Source of the DNA: Metaphire vulgaris
Taxonomy: Eukaryota; Annelida; Clitellata; Crassiclitellata; Megascolecidae
Length of the DNA stretch: 64,000 bases
Assembly: GCA_018105865.1 (NCBI GenBank)
Contig: CM030835.1
Coordinates: 21,713,024-21,777,023 of the forward strand
Reading direction: 5' to 3'
Position numbers and translations under genes: made by a program
The notes under the pieces: generated by a model
The model's database searches: none
What the model was told of the DNA's origin: nothing
What the model saw: only the letters and a program-made list of their open reading frames with translations
In this document: piece after piece, positions 7,433 through 32,211 of the stretch
How the letters are laid out: each line of letters starts with the position of its first letter
Numbering within the stretch: the first letter of the stretch is position 1

Positions 7433-8798
7433 CTGTGTTTGGTATGTTTGTTTTTTAAAGGTGTGTCTGTGTGTAGGATCAGCATAAATAATTGGCATGT
7501 CTTCAATTAGTCTTTCGCAATAGTACACGTGTATTGCAATCGTGGAATTGTAAGACGTAAACTTTGTAGGCCTATGTAGATATTTTGCAATTTGTAACCT
7601 GTTCCTAATTAGATGCATGATTATGACTTATAGCAATTCTACAAAGATCGACGGCAGGTTTTACAAATTTCAGCCGATGTATCTACAACTTGGATTTGCA
7701 GACCCTTTAACTTAAGAGGTCTGTGAATTTGCTAAACTCGATAACGGGGTCCCTCGAATGGAAATGTTTGAAAACCTCTCTCTGATCAAGGGCGTACAAT
7801 TGCGTCAACATGGCTTATAATATCTTCTTATGGTTTTACAAATATAATAGGACTAACTTTCATGACAGAAATTCACCAATGTAACCTATTTTATTGTAGA
7901 ATTGGAATCGTATATCTCCTAAACGAAAATATGCCGATTGAAATTGAACATTACTTTGGATTGTTTCGCTCTTGAAGCGCGATATTAAGAAACAGGATGA
8001 AAATAATTTACCTCAGAATAGGCCTATAGTAGTAGTGGTAGCAGTCAGCTCGTGGCTATCACACCCTGCGTTGACTGAACTCCTGTCGATAAGGATTGCA
8101 TTGCATCCTCTCTTCTTAAATACCATTTTTGGAAAGAACTAAACGAAAACATTTTGACTGAGAATTTAGATGTTCTAGTTATCTTCGGGCTGCCACGAAA
8201 ATAAATCGTTAATAATTCGCAATGTTTTTGCACTCTGACATTTTCTTGTAACTTTGACAGAAATGTTTTTCTGAAATTTCGACATTTACAAATCGATTGC
8301 CGATAAAATGTTATTACAATGTCACATAGAAATATTTGTTTTGGTGTCGTAACAAAAGCATTAAATCATGATTGAACATATTTTCTGGATGAAGTATTTA
8401 TTGCTCGTGGTTTGATGCATTAAAATTGTTATGTTTTAAAGAATAATTCAAATATTCAAATCTGCTGCCGATAAATTACTTTTAATTTAAGTCTTGCAGA
8501 AATATTTGTTTTCATGTCATAACAACATCTATAAATTATGTCTGAACATCTGTTAGTACTTGAGTATTGCCATGCTCTTGTACATTTGAATTGCTGTTAT
8601 AAGAATAATTCGTCTTTTCCATGTTAGTATAAACTCTAAAATGTCTAAATGCCTATCTAGACGGAGGTTGTAGGCCTATAATTGTCTGTTGTTCACAGCG
8701 GTCGATACCTATTAATCATTCTATTGCTTCTATTCGAAACAACATGACCAAGATAGACACGTAGGTCTAATGAAGTGTGATGTAGCATGTGTATATAG

Positions 8799-8960
8799 CA
8801 GGGGTGCACAACCTTTTAAGGACGAAGGGCCACATTTTTCGGTCCCAAGACTCCGCGGACCACATGCGCTTTTTATAATGCAGAAGTGGTACGTTGACAG
8901 CAGACATGGGTCAATTACGTTTTAAGCAATTACAATTACATTACAATTATATGGATTTTT
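8799..8960. mobile_element. hAT-type MITE end, truncated
   Basis: CAGGGGTGCACAACCTTTTA followed by GGGCCAC and CGCGGACCACATGCGC resembles the termini of the hAT MITEs at 42323 and 56009. No right end is seen. The CAATTACAATTA-rich stretch after it is specific to unit 1. Confidence 0.5.
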
Positions 8961-9073
8961 GTCAATTACAATTACAATTACAATTAAAATAGTCAGATTT
9001 TAGCATTCGCATTGAACATAGAGAGGAGTGAGAACACTGAGAAGTGAGGCCAGAATGGAAGGGGTCAACGCAT

Positions 9074-9310
9074 ATGAGAGAGAGAGAGAGAGAGAGAGAG
9101 AGAGAGAGAGAGAGAGAGAGAGAGACAGACAGACAGACAGACAGACAGACAGAGAAAAAGAGAGACAGACAGATAGACAGAGAGATACAGAGAAAGACAG
9201 ACAGAGACAGACAAATAGACAGATACAGACACAAAGACAGAGACATACAGACAGAAAGAGATAGGGAGCTACAGAGAGACGGTGAGTGCGAGAGAGACAG
9301 ATAAAGAGAC
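9074..9310. repeat. (GA)n / (GACA)n microsatellite
   Basis: GA repeat followed by degenerate GACA/GATA repeat. The equivalents are at 21783-22040 (unit 2, longer) and 32212-32310 (unit 3, shorter). RERERE and SLSLSL frames here are artefacts. Confidence 0.95.
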
Positions 9311-9548
9311 TGTAATCTTGGAGGAAGTTCCAAGTGACTGGACCACTCGTGGAAATGACCTGCCCTGAAAGACTGCTCCCATGACATGACTTGTAATAAA
9401 ATAATAATGTAAAATAACTATTACATTAGCATCGGTGACTGGCGTAGTTGTTTGGTAGTTAATTAAGCCTTTCTGACTTAAAAGACTGCAGCTGTTTGAG
9501 CTCTTGAAATGGTAATCTACTGAAGATGTTTGTAATTGTGTCTAGATT

Positions 9549-28624: not shown

Positions 28625-29397
28625 CAGGAGATTGTGATTATCTGAGCATTAGACTAATCACTTGTTGTATTACCACATTAAACGAAAGAGAATTATAGGA
28701 CTAGGTTTCTTGCAAGCAGAACACATTTTCTTATAATATACTTAACTTTTTAGCATACTTTTTAAAACAACTAAAATTCTCCTCTTCATCGATAGTCAAT
28801 AATCGCTGCGGGGGCGTTTCCGAGTGATTCTTCCGAAGAGGCGCTATACAAATATTCTGTAATATTACATCACATTACTAAATGCTACAACATGATCAAA
28901 TGCTTTGAGAACGTTGTGCAAATAAATGTGCAAACATTATATTCAAAATAAAATTAATTCTATGCAATAATAGAATCCTAGTGTCTTGAAATACGTTTCA
29001 AAATCCAATCCACAAACGCTGAACGTAAGAAATAGTACAGCGCCACATAAATTTGTTCCTTTAATAGCTTCAGTAATATGCATCGCACAGTCAAAACATA
29101 ACAGCCTATTAAAACACTTGATTCGACACATTTTCCAGATAAAAACGATATCTATATTGGAGCTGAACAAATCTTACATAAATTTATTACAAATCTTACA
29201 TACATTTGTTGCCAATTTTGAGATTACCTCTTAAAATCAGTTTTCTATAAACGCACGAAATCCTTTGTCTTGCATATAAAATGGCGCACATCAGAATAGT
29301 TCCTAACAATGCACAAAGCTGGACAGGATGACCTTTGAATAGGCCTATAATGCCCTATATTCTTAGTTTTATAAGGTTCCTTCGTTTATTACAGTAA

Positions 29398-29580
29398 ATG
29401 ATGATGATGATGATGATGATGATGATGATGATGATGATGATGATGATGATAATAATAATAATAATAATAATAATAATAATAATAATAATAATAATAATAA
29501 TAATAATAATAATAATAATAATAATAATAATAATAATAATAATAATAATAATAATAATAATAATAATATTAATATTAATA
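29398..29580. repeat. (ATG)n/(AAT)n tract at the unit 2-3 boundary
   Basis: About 17 ATG triplets followed by about 40 AAT triplets. Unit 3 begins directly after it. Confidence 0.95.
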
Positions 29581-31406
29581 AGCTATCCAACGTAGTGTGG
29601 GGCAATTTACATATCGAATAAAATTGGAATTTGCAGCAGACAATAACTTTGTTACACTGGCTATAAAAATCCAAGAAGCGAGGAGAAACATTGGCCAATC
29701 GACATAGCGCCGTTGACCGATAAGTTAGAGAGCTTAACTATAACTTTCTATCTCACCTCTGCACAATGCTATCATTTGAAACACAGCAGTGACCACGACG
29801 AAGATCATTAGCCAACGAATTGCGAGGATTCCTTTCCCCATTGCAGATTCTATTCACTCGGACTGAATGGGCTGTCTACACTCAAGACAAATGACTCATG
29901 TGCAGCAACAGCCATTGTGAGTTCTAAATATTTCTTAGAAATATCGAGAACTGCTCTTATGTGCAAAATTTTATCTGTGAATTTAAAAATTAAACTGCGC
30001 GCATTAGAATTTCAAATCGACTGAACGCGAACTTCGCATGTAGCCACCGCAGATAACGGGTGGAGATAGATCAAGATACACCTGAGATAACCAGGTGAGC
30101 ATGCATTCCATTAAGTCCTCATACATTTAGGATTGACATTTCATTCTGATTTTTTCAGATAGTATTTCTGCAAAATTGTAAAAATATGAATTCTTTAGCG
30201 TGCAATTTGCTTTGTCTTACAGATATCTTAACTCTTTCGAAGCCTTTCCTATCATCTGCAATTATTCTTATATCCAATTTTCATCCGTTCATAAGAGCGT
30301 AATAGACCTACTAAGATAAAAGTCAGTATTCGAACAACATGCATGGTATGCTTAGCATTTGCGATTTCACACTGATGTCGTCAAGAAGTCTCATAATAGA
30401 AGAAACCGATGTTCTCAGATGTTTACAATCCTCTATGGCAGAATGTTGGAGATAATACATGTATATCATTGGATTAAACTTGACGTATCTTATAGTTATC
30501 CCAACCTCTGTCTTTGGGATCGTCCAATGCCCTGGTCTTCAAAGTTCGACCCGCCAAGGACTTTAACCCGGCCCGCGGCAAGAAATAAGTAACATGCGCA
30601 AATCTATTAAGCAATATACGGATATCTTTTTCCCCTAACACTAACCTTAGGCCTACATACAATGGGCAGTAGCTCCCCTAAAGTTGGAAAGTGGATAAGA
30701 TATCTTGTATATTGCACATCAGTGTTGTCAGATTGGCTAGTTTACACCCAAATTGGGCTAGCTAGTTTACAAAAATTTTGGCGGGCAATTTTTCATGTGC
30801 GATTTCTTTGGCTATGTTTGGCCATTTTTAGGTTGCTGGACTCTGACCGGTCGTAGTCACCTCACCCCGAACGGAAATGTTTGAAAACCTCTCTCTGATC
30901 AAGGGTGTACAATTGCGTCAACATGGCTTCTAATATCTTCTTATGGTTTTACAAATGTAATAGGGCTAACTTTCTTGACAGAAATTCGGCAATGTAACCT
31001 ATTTTATTTTAGAATTGGAATCGTATCTGAGGGTATCTCTCCTAAACGAAAACATGCCGATTGAAATTTGAAATTATTTTGGGTTGTTTCGCTCTCGAAA
31101 CGCGATATTAAGAAACAGGATGAAAGTAAATTACCTCAGAATATAGTAGTAGTTGTAGCAGTCAGCTCGTGGCTCTCACACCCTGCCTTGAGGGAACTCC
31201 TGTCTATAGGGATTGCATTCCAACCTCTCTTCTTAAATACCTTTTTAGGAAAGAACTAAACGAAAACATTTAAATATAGATGTTCTCGTTATCTTCGGGC
31301 TGCCACGAAAATAAATCGTTAATAATTCGCAATGTTTTTGCACTCTGACATTTCTTGTAACTTTGACAGAAATGTTTTTCTGAAATTTTGACATTTACAA
31401 ATCGAT

Positions 31407-31571
31407 GTCATGTCATGAAGCCGTCTTCGCTATATATGCGAAGGTTGGCTGCAACGCTGCTGAACAATAATTTTCCACTGGTCCCTTTTTTAGCTGCTTC
31501 CATTAGTGGAGCTCCTTAATTGAATTCATATTAGTCCATGTCGTAATGTTATCTATCCAGCTACATTTCAC
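31407..31571 (-). mobile_element. LINE 3'-end insertion, unit 3 copy
   Basis: The same insertion as 20970-21131 at the same site, with TTACAAATCGAT at 31395-31406 and 31572-31583. It is shared by units 2 and 3 only. Confidence 0.8.
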
Positions 31572-32211
31572 TTACAAATCGATTGTCGATTAAATTCTAT
31601 TAGGCTTTAATGTCACATAGAGATATTTGTTTTCGTGTCGTAACAAAAGCATTAAATCATGATCGACTGAGCATCTTTTCTGGATGAAGTAGGCCTATTG
31701 CTCGTGTTTTGATGCATTCAAATTATGTTTTAAAGAATAATTCGAAATATTCAAATCTGCTGCCCATAAATTACTTTTATAAGTCTTGCAGAAACATTTG
31801 CTTTTATGTCGTAACAAAACCTATAAATTATGTCTGAACATCTCTTAGGGCTTGAGTATTAGTCATGCTCTTCTACATTTGAATGTCTATGTTATAAGAA
31901 TAATAATATTCGTCTTTTCTATGTTAAATCTCTATCAAGACGGATGTTGTAATTGTCCGCTGTTCATAGCGATCGATACCGATTAATCAATCTATTGCTT
32001 CTATTCGCAACAACATGACCAAGATAGACACGTAGGTCTAATGAAGTGTGATGTAGCATGTGTATATACTATATAGCACCTCTGAATTAACTTCTATTCA
32101 GAGGCCCTCCAAGCTTTGGAGTGGCAAGATAAAATAGTCAGATTTTAGCATTCGCATTGAACATAGAGAGGAGTGAGAAGTGAGGCCAGAATGGATGGGG
32201 TCAACGCATAT

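Follow-up and report, generated by a model that had tools for sequence, protein, structure and literature searches.

Why does one palindromic octamer, TAGGCCTA, in which GGCC is enclosed by two TA dinucleotides, recur so often in a stretch of annelid DNA? The stretch, 64,000 nucleotides of Metaphire vulgaris contig CM030835.1 (positions 21,713,024 to 21,777,023 of the forward strand; hereafter the window), carries tandem units of ~10.5 kb with C2H2 zinc-finger reading frames inside. Units 2 (11.9-22.5 kb) and 3 (22.5-32.7 kb) are complete, and units 1 (about 4.0-9.7 kb) and 4 (32.7-40.0 kb) are partial. The word is in large excess at TA, and at the cleanest sites it distinguishes sister units by a small insertion or deletion (indel) with a duplicated TA. 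On balance, we lean towards the reading that the octamer is the footprint left when a cut-and-paste transposon that targets TA excises; the element would most likely be of the Tc1/mariner type and have ends 5'-GGC...GCC-3'. The mechanism is already known; the abundance and the proposed overhang are unusual.

Abundance of the octamer

The window contains 16 exact copies of TAGGCCTA, against 0.56, 0.48 and 0.68 expected under order-1, order-2 and order-3 Markov models, and the highest count in 60 order-3 simulations was 3. The original prediction, made from the sequence before this analysis, had put about 16 copies against fewer than one expected, and the count agrees with it (16 versus 0.5-0.7). 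The number is inflated because tandem copies repeat the same loci, 8671 being the same as 21513, and 18847 the same as 29340 and 39694. After such copies were collapsed, with loci merged by hand from the word positions, 13 loci in about 42.7 kb stand against 0.32 expected (Poisson 4e-17), 12 of them in the first 40 kb and one in the last 24 kb.

Among TA-N4-TA words with at least three occurrences, AT-only inner words excluded, inner GGCC ranks first at 33-fold, followed by CGCG at 11-fold (3 occurrences). Likewise, among the 16 direct XY-GGCC-XY words, the TA version occurs 16 times and the remaining 15 occur 0-3 times each. The letters next to the word follow the pattern R-TA..TA-Y in 22 of 26 flanks (both strands counted, complex sites and 21604 included), against a background of 48% (p=1.3e-4). 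At the clean sites A, B and E, described below, these flanks belong to the target, because the word-free copies have the same ones.

Differences between sister units

Units 2 and 3 align over 10,129 bases at 96.0% identity with 61 gaps, 30 of which are at least 3 bp long. A TA-GGC(C)-TA word is touched by six of these 30 (binomial p=6.6e-8). Five of the six (12881 and sites C, F, D and B) are strict presence/absence differences (p=2.2e-6), and site E is a length difference with a word in both units. The chance per indel, 72/10129, was our choice and represents nine 8-bp words in 10,129 bases. A satellite filter that removed 16 of the 30 indels was too broad, and testing all 30 again gave six. 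Five of the six cases fall in the unit 2 spacer, at 20.2-22.3 kb; sites A and E provide extra comparisons from unit 1.

At the clean sites A, B, E and 12881, the units differ as TA versus TA-X-TA, that is, with the target TA duplicated. Unit 1 has TAGGCCTA at site A (8019-8026), where units 2 and 3 are shorter by 6 bp; unit 2 has it at site B (22286-22293) and is 6 bp longer there than units 1 and 3 with their single TA. These two are exact TA to TA-GGCC-TA differences, the form that had been claimed for the clean cases. At site E, unit 2 carries the 5-nt variant TAGGCCCTA (21246-21254; TA-GGCCC-TA) against a single TA in unit 1 (+7), and unit 3 carries TAGGCCTA at the same place (31690-31697), where it lacks 5 bp relative to unit 2. 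A further case, absent from the original prediction, is 12881-12887, at which unit 2 reads ATATGTAGGCTAATC, containing the 3-nt-class word TAGGCTA (TA-GGC-TA, +5), where unit 3 reads ATATGTAATC with a single TA; unit 4 has TAGGCTA at this locus too (33654-33660).

All of the sites A to F that the original prediction had listed were found in the sequence, although several depart from the simple form, E by its +7 in unit 2 and C, F and D as follows. Site C has TAGGCCTA in unit 3 (30648-30655), and unit 2 lacks 6 bp and has one adjacent substitution. Site F has the octamer in units 1 (8671-8678) and 2 (21513-21520), and unit 3 lacks 8 bp, which could also be described as +6 plus a TA difference. 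At site D, TAGGCCTA in unit 2 (21726-21733) is part of a complex replacement relative to units 1 and 3.

The remaining copies with sister sequence differ in character. The word at 18847-18854 of unit 2 is also present in units 3 (29340-29347) and 4 (39694-39701). At 21604-21611, TAGGCCTA in unit 2 corresponds to TAGGTCTA in the other two units compared, 1 and 3, a substitution with no indel; this copy may not be a footprint, and the local tree there joins units 1 and 2, yet TAGGTCTA is common to units 1 and 3. Copies at 507-514, 2147-2154, 7567-7574 and 63291-63298 have no sister copy, and the one at 4169-4176, which adjoins an AAT microsatellite, has no reliable one.

Besides these words, unit 2 carries TAGGGGACTTAGTCCTA at 22157-22173, a fold-back insertion of 13 nt that lies between TAs and has GG...CC ends; the TA is duplicated and one neighbouring base substituted relative to the single TA of units 1 and 3. 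It is possibly filler DNA, or a footprint in which longer stretches of the transposon ends were retained.

A proposed footprint with GGC overhangs

If the octamer is an excision footprint, the element would have entered at TA, duplicating it, and its excision by staggered cuts would have left a 3-nt GGC 3' overhang on each flank. Such overhangs would be self-complementary over GC, so that 2-nt pairing and fill-in would give TA-GGCC-TA as the main product. Pairing over 3 nt, with one G:G mismatch, would give TA-GGC-TA or TA-GCC-TA; pairing over 1 nt, with one C:C mismatch, would give TA-GGCCC-TA or TA-GGGCC-TA; and zero pairing would give TA-GGCGCC-TA. The dominance of TA-GGCC-TA would follow because the 2-nt overlap alone pairs both strands without a mismatch.

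All four predicted classes occur in the window. The products GGC/GCC, GGCC, GGCCC/GGGCC and GGCGCC have raw counts of 9, 16, 3 and 1 and, by locus, counts of 6, 13, 3 and 1 against 2.6, 0.32, 0.15 and 0.012 expected. The 5-nt class (3 versus 0.15 by locus, p=5e-4) comprises the site E variant, a second TAGGCCCTA at 42295-42303 and TAGGGCCTA at 43842-43850, and the 6-nt, zero-overlap class is represented by TAGGCGCCTA at 2158-2167. The 3-nt class is marginal (TAGGCTA plus TAGCCTA by locus, p=0.05), and chance may account for TAGGCTA at 42506-42512 and TAGCCTA at 3500-3506, 43020-43026 and 63099-63105, all without a sister copy, and for TAGCCTA at 12806-12812 (also at 23383 and 33578). With the octamer excluded, GGC ranks third among the 64 possible overhangs, after TAT (a microsatellite) and CAG. 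Together the classes lend moderate support to the exact GGC overhang, which we infer rather than observe because the counts are small. The original prediction had proposed the footprint of a TA-targeting transposon with GG...CC ends. Its core stands as the best reading of the TA excess, the TA-duplicating clean indels and the symmetric flanks; its ends are refined here to GGC...GCC with 3-nt overhangs, which cover more of the variants (TAGGCTA, TAGCCTA, TAGGCCCTA, TAGGGCCTA and TAGGCGCCTA).

The Sleeping Beauty-type words TACAGTA and TACTGTA are themselves enriched in the window (22 raw; 16 loci versus 5.0 expected by locus), which suggests past activity of a CAG-ended, Tc1-like element.

Most copies of TAGGCCTA appear to be young, with an age near that of the divergence between units, since the excess of their one-base neighbours (21 versus 14.5 expected, p=0.06) is small beside 16 perfect words. 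The most enriched neighbours are the mutual reverse complements TAGACCTA and TAGGTCTA (9 versus 1.2; at 5479, 5984, 8762, 19869, 30303, 32033, 42993, 60333 and 63172), which could represent decay at one of the inner C bases or a separate footprint, and TAGGACTA occurs 3 times versus 0.5.

Contrary evidence and competing explanations

Several observations, given here and in the discussion of parent and direction below, weigh against a transposon footprint. Two other words rich in GC, CCGGCCCC and GGGGCCGG, exceed expectation as well, with 3 occurrences each versus about 0.2; their positions fall within or close to GC-rich tandem repeats. Word-touching indels number 0 of 15 between units 2 and 4 and 1 of 12 between units 3 and 4, and sites D and F are not explained by a single clean event. 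GGC leads the other overhangs by a modest amount (Fisher 28.5 versus 22.3 for the next, copies uncollapsed), and the secondary product classes are few in number.

The putative parent was likewise not found in the window. When the 64 kb were scanned for inverted ends that begin with GGC, GG or GGG and are bordered by TA, no convincing TA-GGC...GCC-TA element came out; the best GGC end pairs, two in number, have 11/16 matches, a figure for which no chance level was computed. By eye, no parent was seen among copy differences of at least 30 bp in the block of units 2, 3 and 4, or of at least 60 bp in the block of units 1, 2 and 3. Thirteen footprint loci are therefore set against 0 elements in the window, and we know of no named family with ends that begin GGC.

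Two repeats with GG-starting ends were considered as parents and set aside. A miniature inverted-repeat transposable element of ~400 bp with ends GRGGCTGTCCATTAATTA is present in two copies (59045-59452 and about 49730-50128), the complete copy having TTA on both sides by eye and the other a diverged left end; a TTA duplication is PIF/Harbinger-like and would leave no TA-only scars. An inverted pair at 50375-52397 has GGGTC rather than GGC ends, with no transposase-like frame by eye. Among viral contigs, a scan for octamer clusters gave 11 loci but no usable animal DNA, and none of the 11 was used: in five (L003, L004, L005, L006 and L009) the spacing of octamers looks like short tandem arrays, and another (L008) has phage-like genes by eye.

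An insertion process that involves no transposon would dispense with the parent altogether. A nuclease or other breakage agent would cut TA with a 2-nt stagger, a polymerase would add GG to each 3' end, and joining of the ends would give TA-GGCC-TA, with an exactly palindromic GGCC. We judge this fairly unlikely. Untemplated addition should vary in length, yet TAGGTA, TAGGGTA and TAGGGCCCTA are unenriched (4, 0 and 0 occurrences), TAGGCGCCTA is inconsistent with G-tailing, and we know of no such process.

The overhang, too, can be drawn differently within the same class of transposon, as a 2-nt, Tc1-like GG or as a 4-nt GGCC in place of GGC. A GG overhang could also give TAGGCTA/TAGCCTA and TAGGCCTA; it predicts TAGGTA and TACCTA as well, which are not clearly enriched (4 versus 7.6 and 11 versus 8.9 expected), and leaves the dominance of the unpaired product unexplained. 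A GGCC overhang would yield TAGGCCTA by perfect 4-bp pairing, but a 4-nt stagger exceeds the 2-3 nt given for Tc1/mariner elements (PMC3878927). Either form seems to us improbable.

The direction of change bears on another account, in which the duplicated unit carried the word from the start and some copies lost 6 bp by deletion between the TAs, which offer 2 bp of microhomology. For each site, the agreeing pair among units 1-3 was counted within 150 bases. The commonest split groups units 2 and 3 against unit 1 at site A (15 versus 8 and 3), units 1 and 2 against unit 3 at site F (18 versus 5 and 2), and units 1 and 3 against unit 2 at site B (17 versus 3 and 2) and at the 17-mer TAGGGGACTTAGTCCTA (13 versus 3 and 1). 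The split is weak at site E (units 2 and 3 against unit 1, 11 versus 8 and 1). At site D it joins units 2 and 3 against unit 1 (35 versus 21 and 12) and at face value would favour gain in unit 2; this stretch is badly aligned and was not relied on. Site C has no unit 1 copy.

Because the odd copy at A, B, F and the 17-mer is also the odd copy for the word, the copies alone cannot tell gain from loss, and A, B and F are left unpolarised. The original prediction had held that comparison of the units shows how the words arise; it assumed a direction that the local tree, by picking the word's own odd copy at A, B and F, does not provide. At 12881, units 2 and 4 carry the word and unit 3 lacks it, whereas units 2 and 3 are closest over the block (96.9% versus 94.9%, with unit 4 as the outgroup), which favours loss in unit 3, barring local exchange between units; against this, unit 3 also stands apart in its immediate flanks. 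Gain is nevertheless what we infer overall, mainly because only gains yield the 25-fold excess of the word, which is beyond the reach of deletion. Selection for a protein-binding site that has spread is the other non-insertional account, and it predicts neither TA-duplicating indels nor 5- and 7-bp variants at TA. We consider it very doubtful that ancestral loss or such selection explains the word. Head-to-head fusion of telomere repeats (TTAGG/CCTAA) can be dismissed, the flanks being mostly R-TA..TA-Y and TTAGGCCTAA being found 0 times (0.06 expected).

Comparison with known transposons

An excision footprint of the proposed kind resembles those of characterized elements. After cutting by the Sleeping Beauty and mariner transposases, each flank ends in a 3-nt 3' overhang, and in somatic mammalian cells non-homologous end joining does most of the repair (PMC7827188). 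The Sleeping Beauty footprint is C(A/T)GTA (PMC3878927), and footprints measure 2-4 bp for Tc1/mariner and 0-3 bp for ZB (PMC7913693), and 0-4 bp for Passer (PMC9976928). As with Sleeping Beauty, Frog Prince and other Tc1/mariner elements, the TA is duplicated, a few end bases would be kept between the TAs, and joining would be directed by the overhang (PMC7827188, PMC3878927, PMC4378557). Unlike Sleeping Beauty, which leaves 3 nt (TA-CAG-TA or TA-CTG-TA), the dominant product here is the 4-nt GGCC, accompanied by 3-, 5- and 6-nt variants; and unlike in Tc1/mariner systems, footprints outnumber elements within the window and the parent is putative.

PIF/Harbinger elements share ends that usually start with A or G (AG or GG in Pangu) and AT-rich targets (PMC4482050). 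Their duplicated targets are TWA, and those of related groups are AT (ISL2EU), ANT (Pangu), CWG (NuwaI) and most likely TNA (NuwaII) (PMC4482050), whereas clean sites here, unlike in PIF/Harbinger and the related PHIS, duplicate TA alone. A lineage with TA duplication does exist in rust fungi (PMC12730594). The 3-bp TWA duplication of PIF/Harbinger itself was not seen at the clean sites; TTAGGCCTTA and TAAGGCCTAA occur 0 times in the window against about 0.06 expected each, a comparison with little power alone. Nor does piggyBac fit, with its TTAA target and scarless excision, since TA is what the clean sites duplicate and a scar remains there (TTAAGGCCTTAA occurs 0 times in the window), or ISL2EU, which would duplicate AT within A-AT-T (ATGGCCAT occurs 3 times versus 1.3 expected). 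Internal eliminated sequences of Paramecium are TA-bounded and very efficiently removed, restoring a single TA without a scar. The sites described here are similarly TA-bounded; they differ in that two TAs and GGCC are left, and in that the sequence is animal-like.

Neighbouring sequences

A Pfam scan of five open reading frames of the window matched one to zinc-finger families (the unit 4 frame) and one to RVT_1, with no match for three. The zinc-finger protein resembles animal zinc fingers generally (among the matches listed, 120 of 7884), and its residues 372-471 had no match in the similarity search. The fragment of a long interspersed nuclear element gave 27 matches, of which two carry an organism name, both Labeo rohita, a fish. 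Reverse transcriptase and zinc-finger queries found no relative among viral contigs, and the reverse transcriptase found none among prokaryote genome contigs.

Differences between units in the zinc-finger exons (14490-15184, 25043-25737 and 35260-36206) are whole 84-bp repeats, and unit 4 has three extra 84-bp insertions compared with units 2 and 3. Along the spacer (20435-22478, 30865-32676 and 7756-9700), the most similar pair of units shifts with position, which points to gene conversion or unequal exchange among them.

Implications

Among the papers listed in a search that covered few subscription journals, we found none that presents TAGGCCTA as an excision footprint or reports its enrichment in a genome, which is weak evidence of novelty; one paper, on cockroach R2 elements, contains the octamer and also mentions footprints and transposons. 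A wider proposal, which we hold with more doubt than belief, is that an unnamed TA-targeting, GGC-ended transposon undergoes near-complete, repeated excision and has left far more scars than copies, that these scars make up about 1/5 of the small indels between young duplicates, and that they have changed the word composition of an entire animal genome, and perhaps of genomes in several phyla. Were the octamer indeed a scar of this kind, transposon excision would contribute heavily to the small insertions of some animal genomes, through scars that have been little counted and whose sequence is specific and predictable, and the series of overlaps would be a readout of the choices made by germ-line end joining. 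The series would also predict the bases with which the unseen transposon begins, making a direct search for the parent possible, and there would be an explanation for an enriched palindrome that could be mistaken for a regulatory motif.

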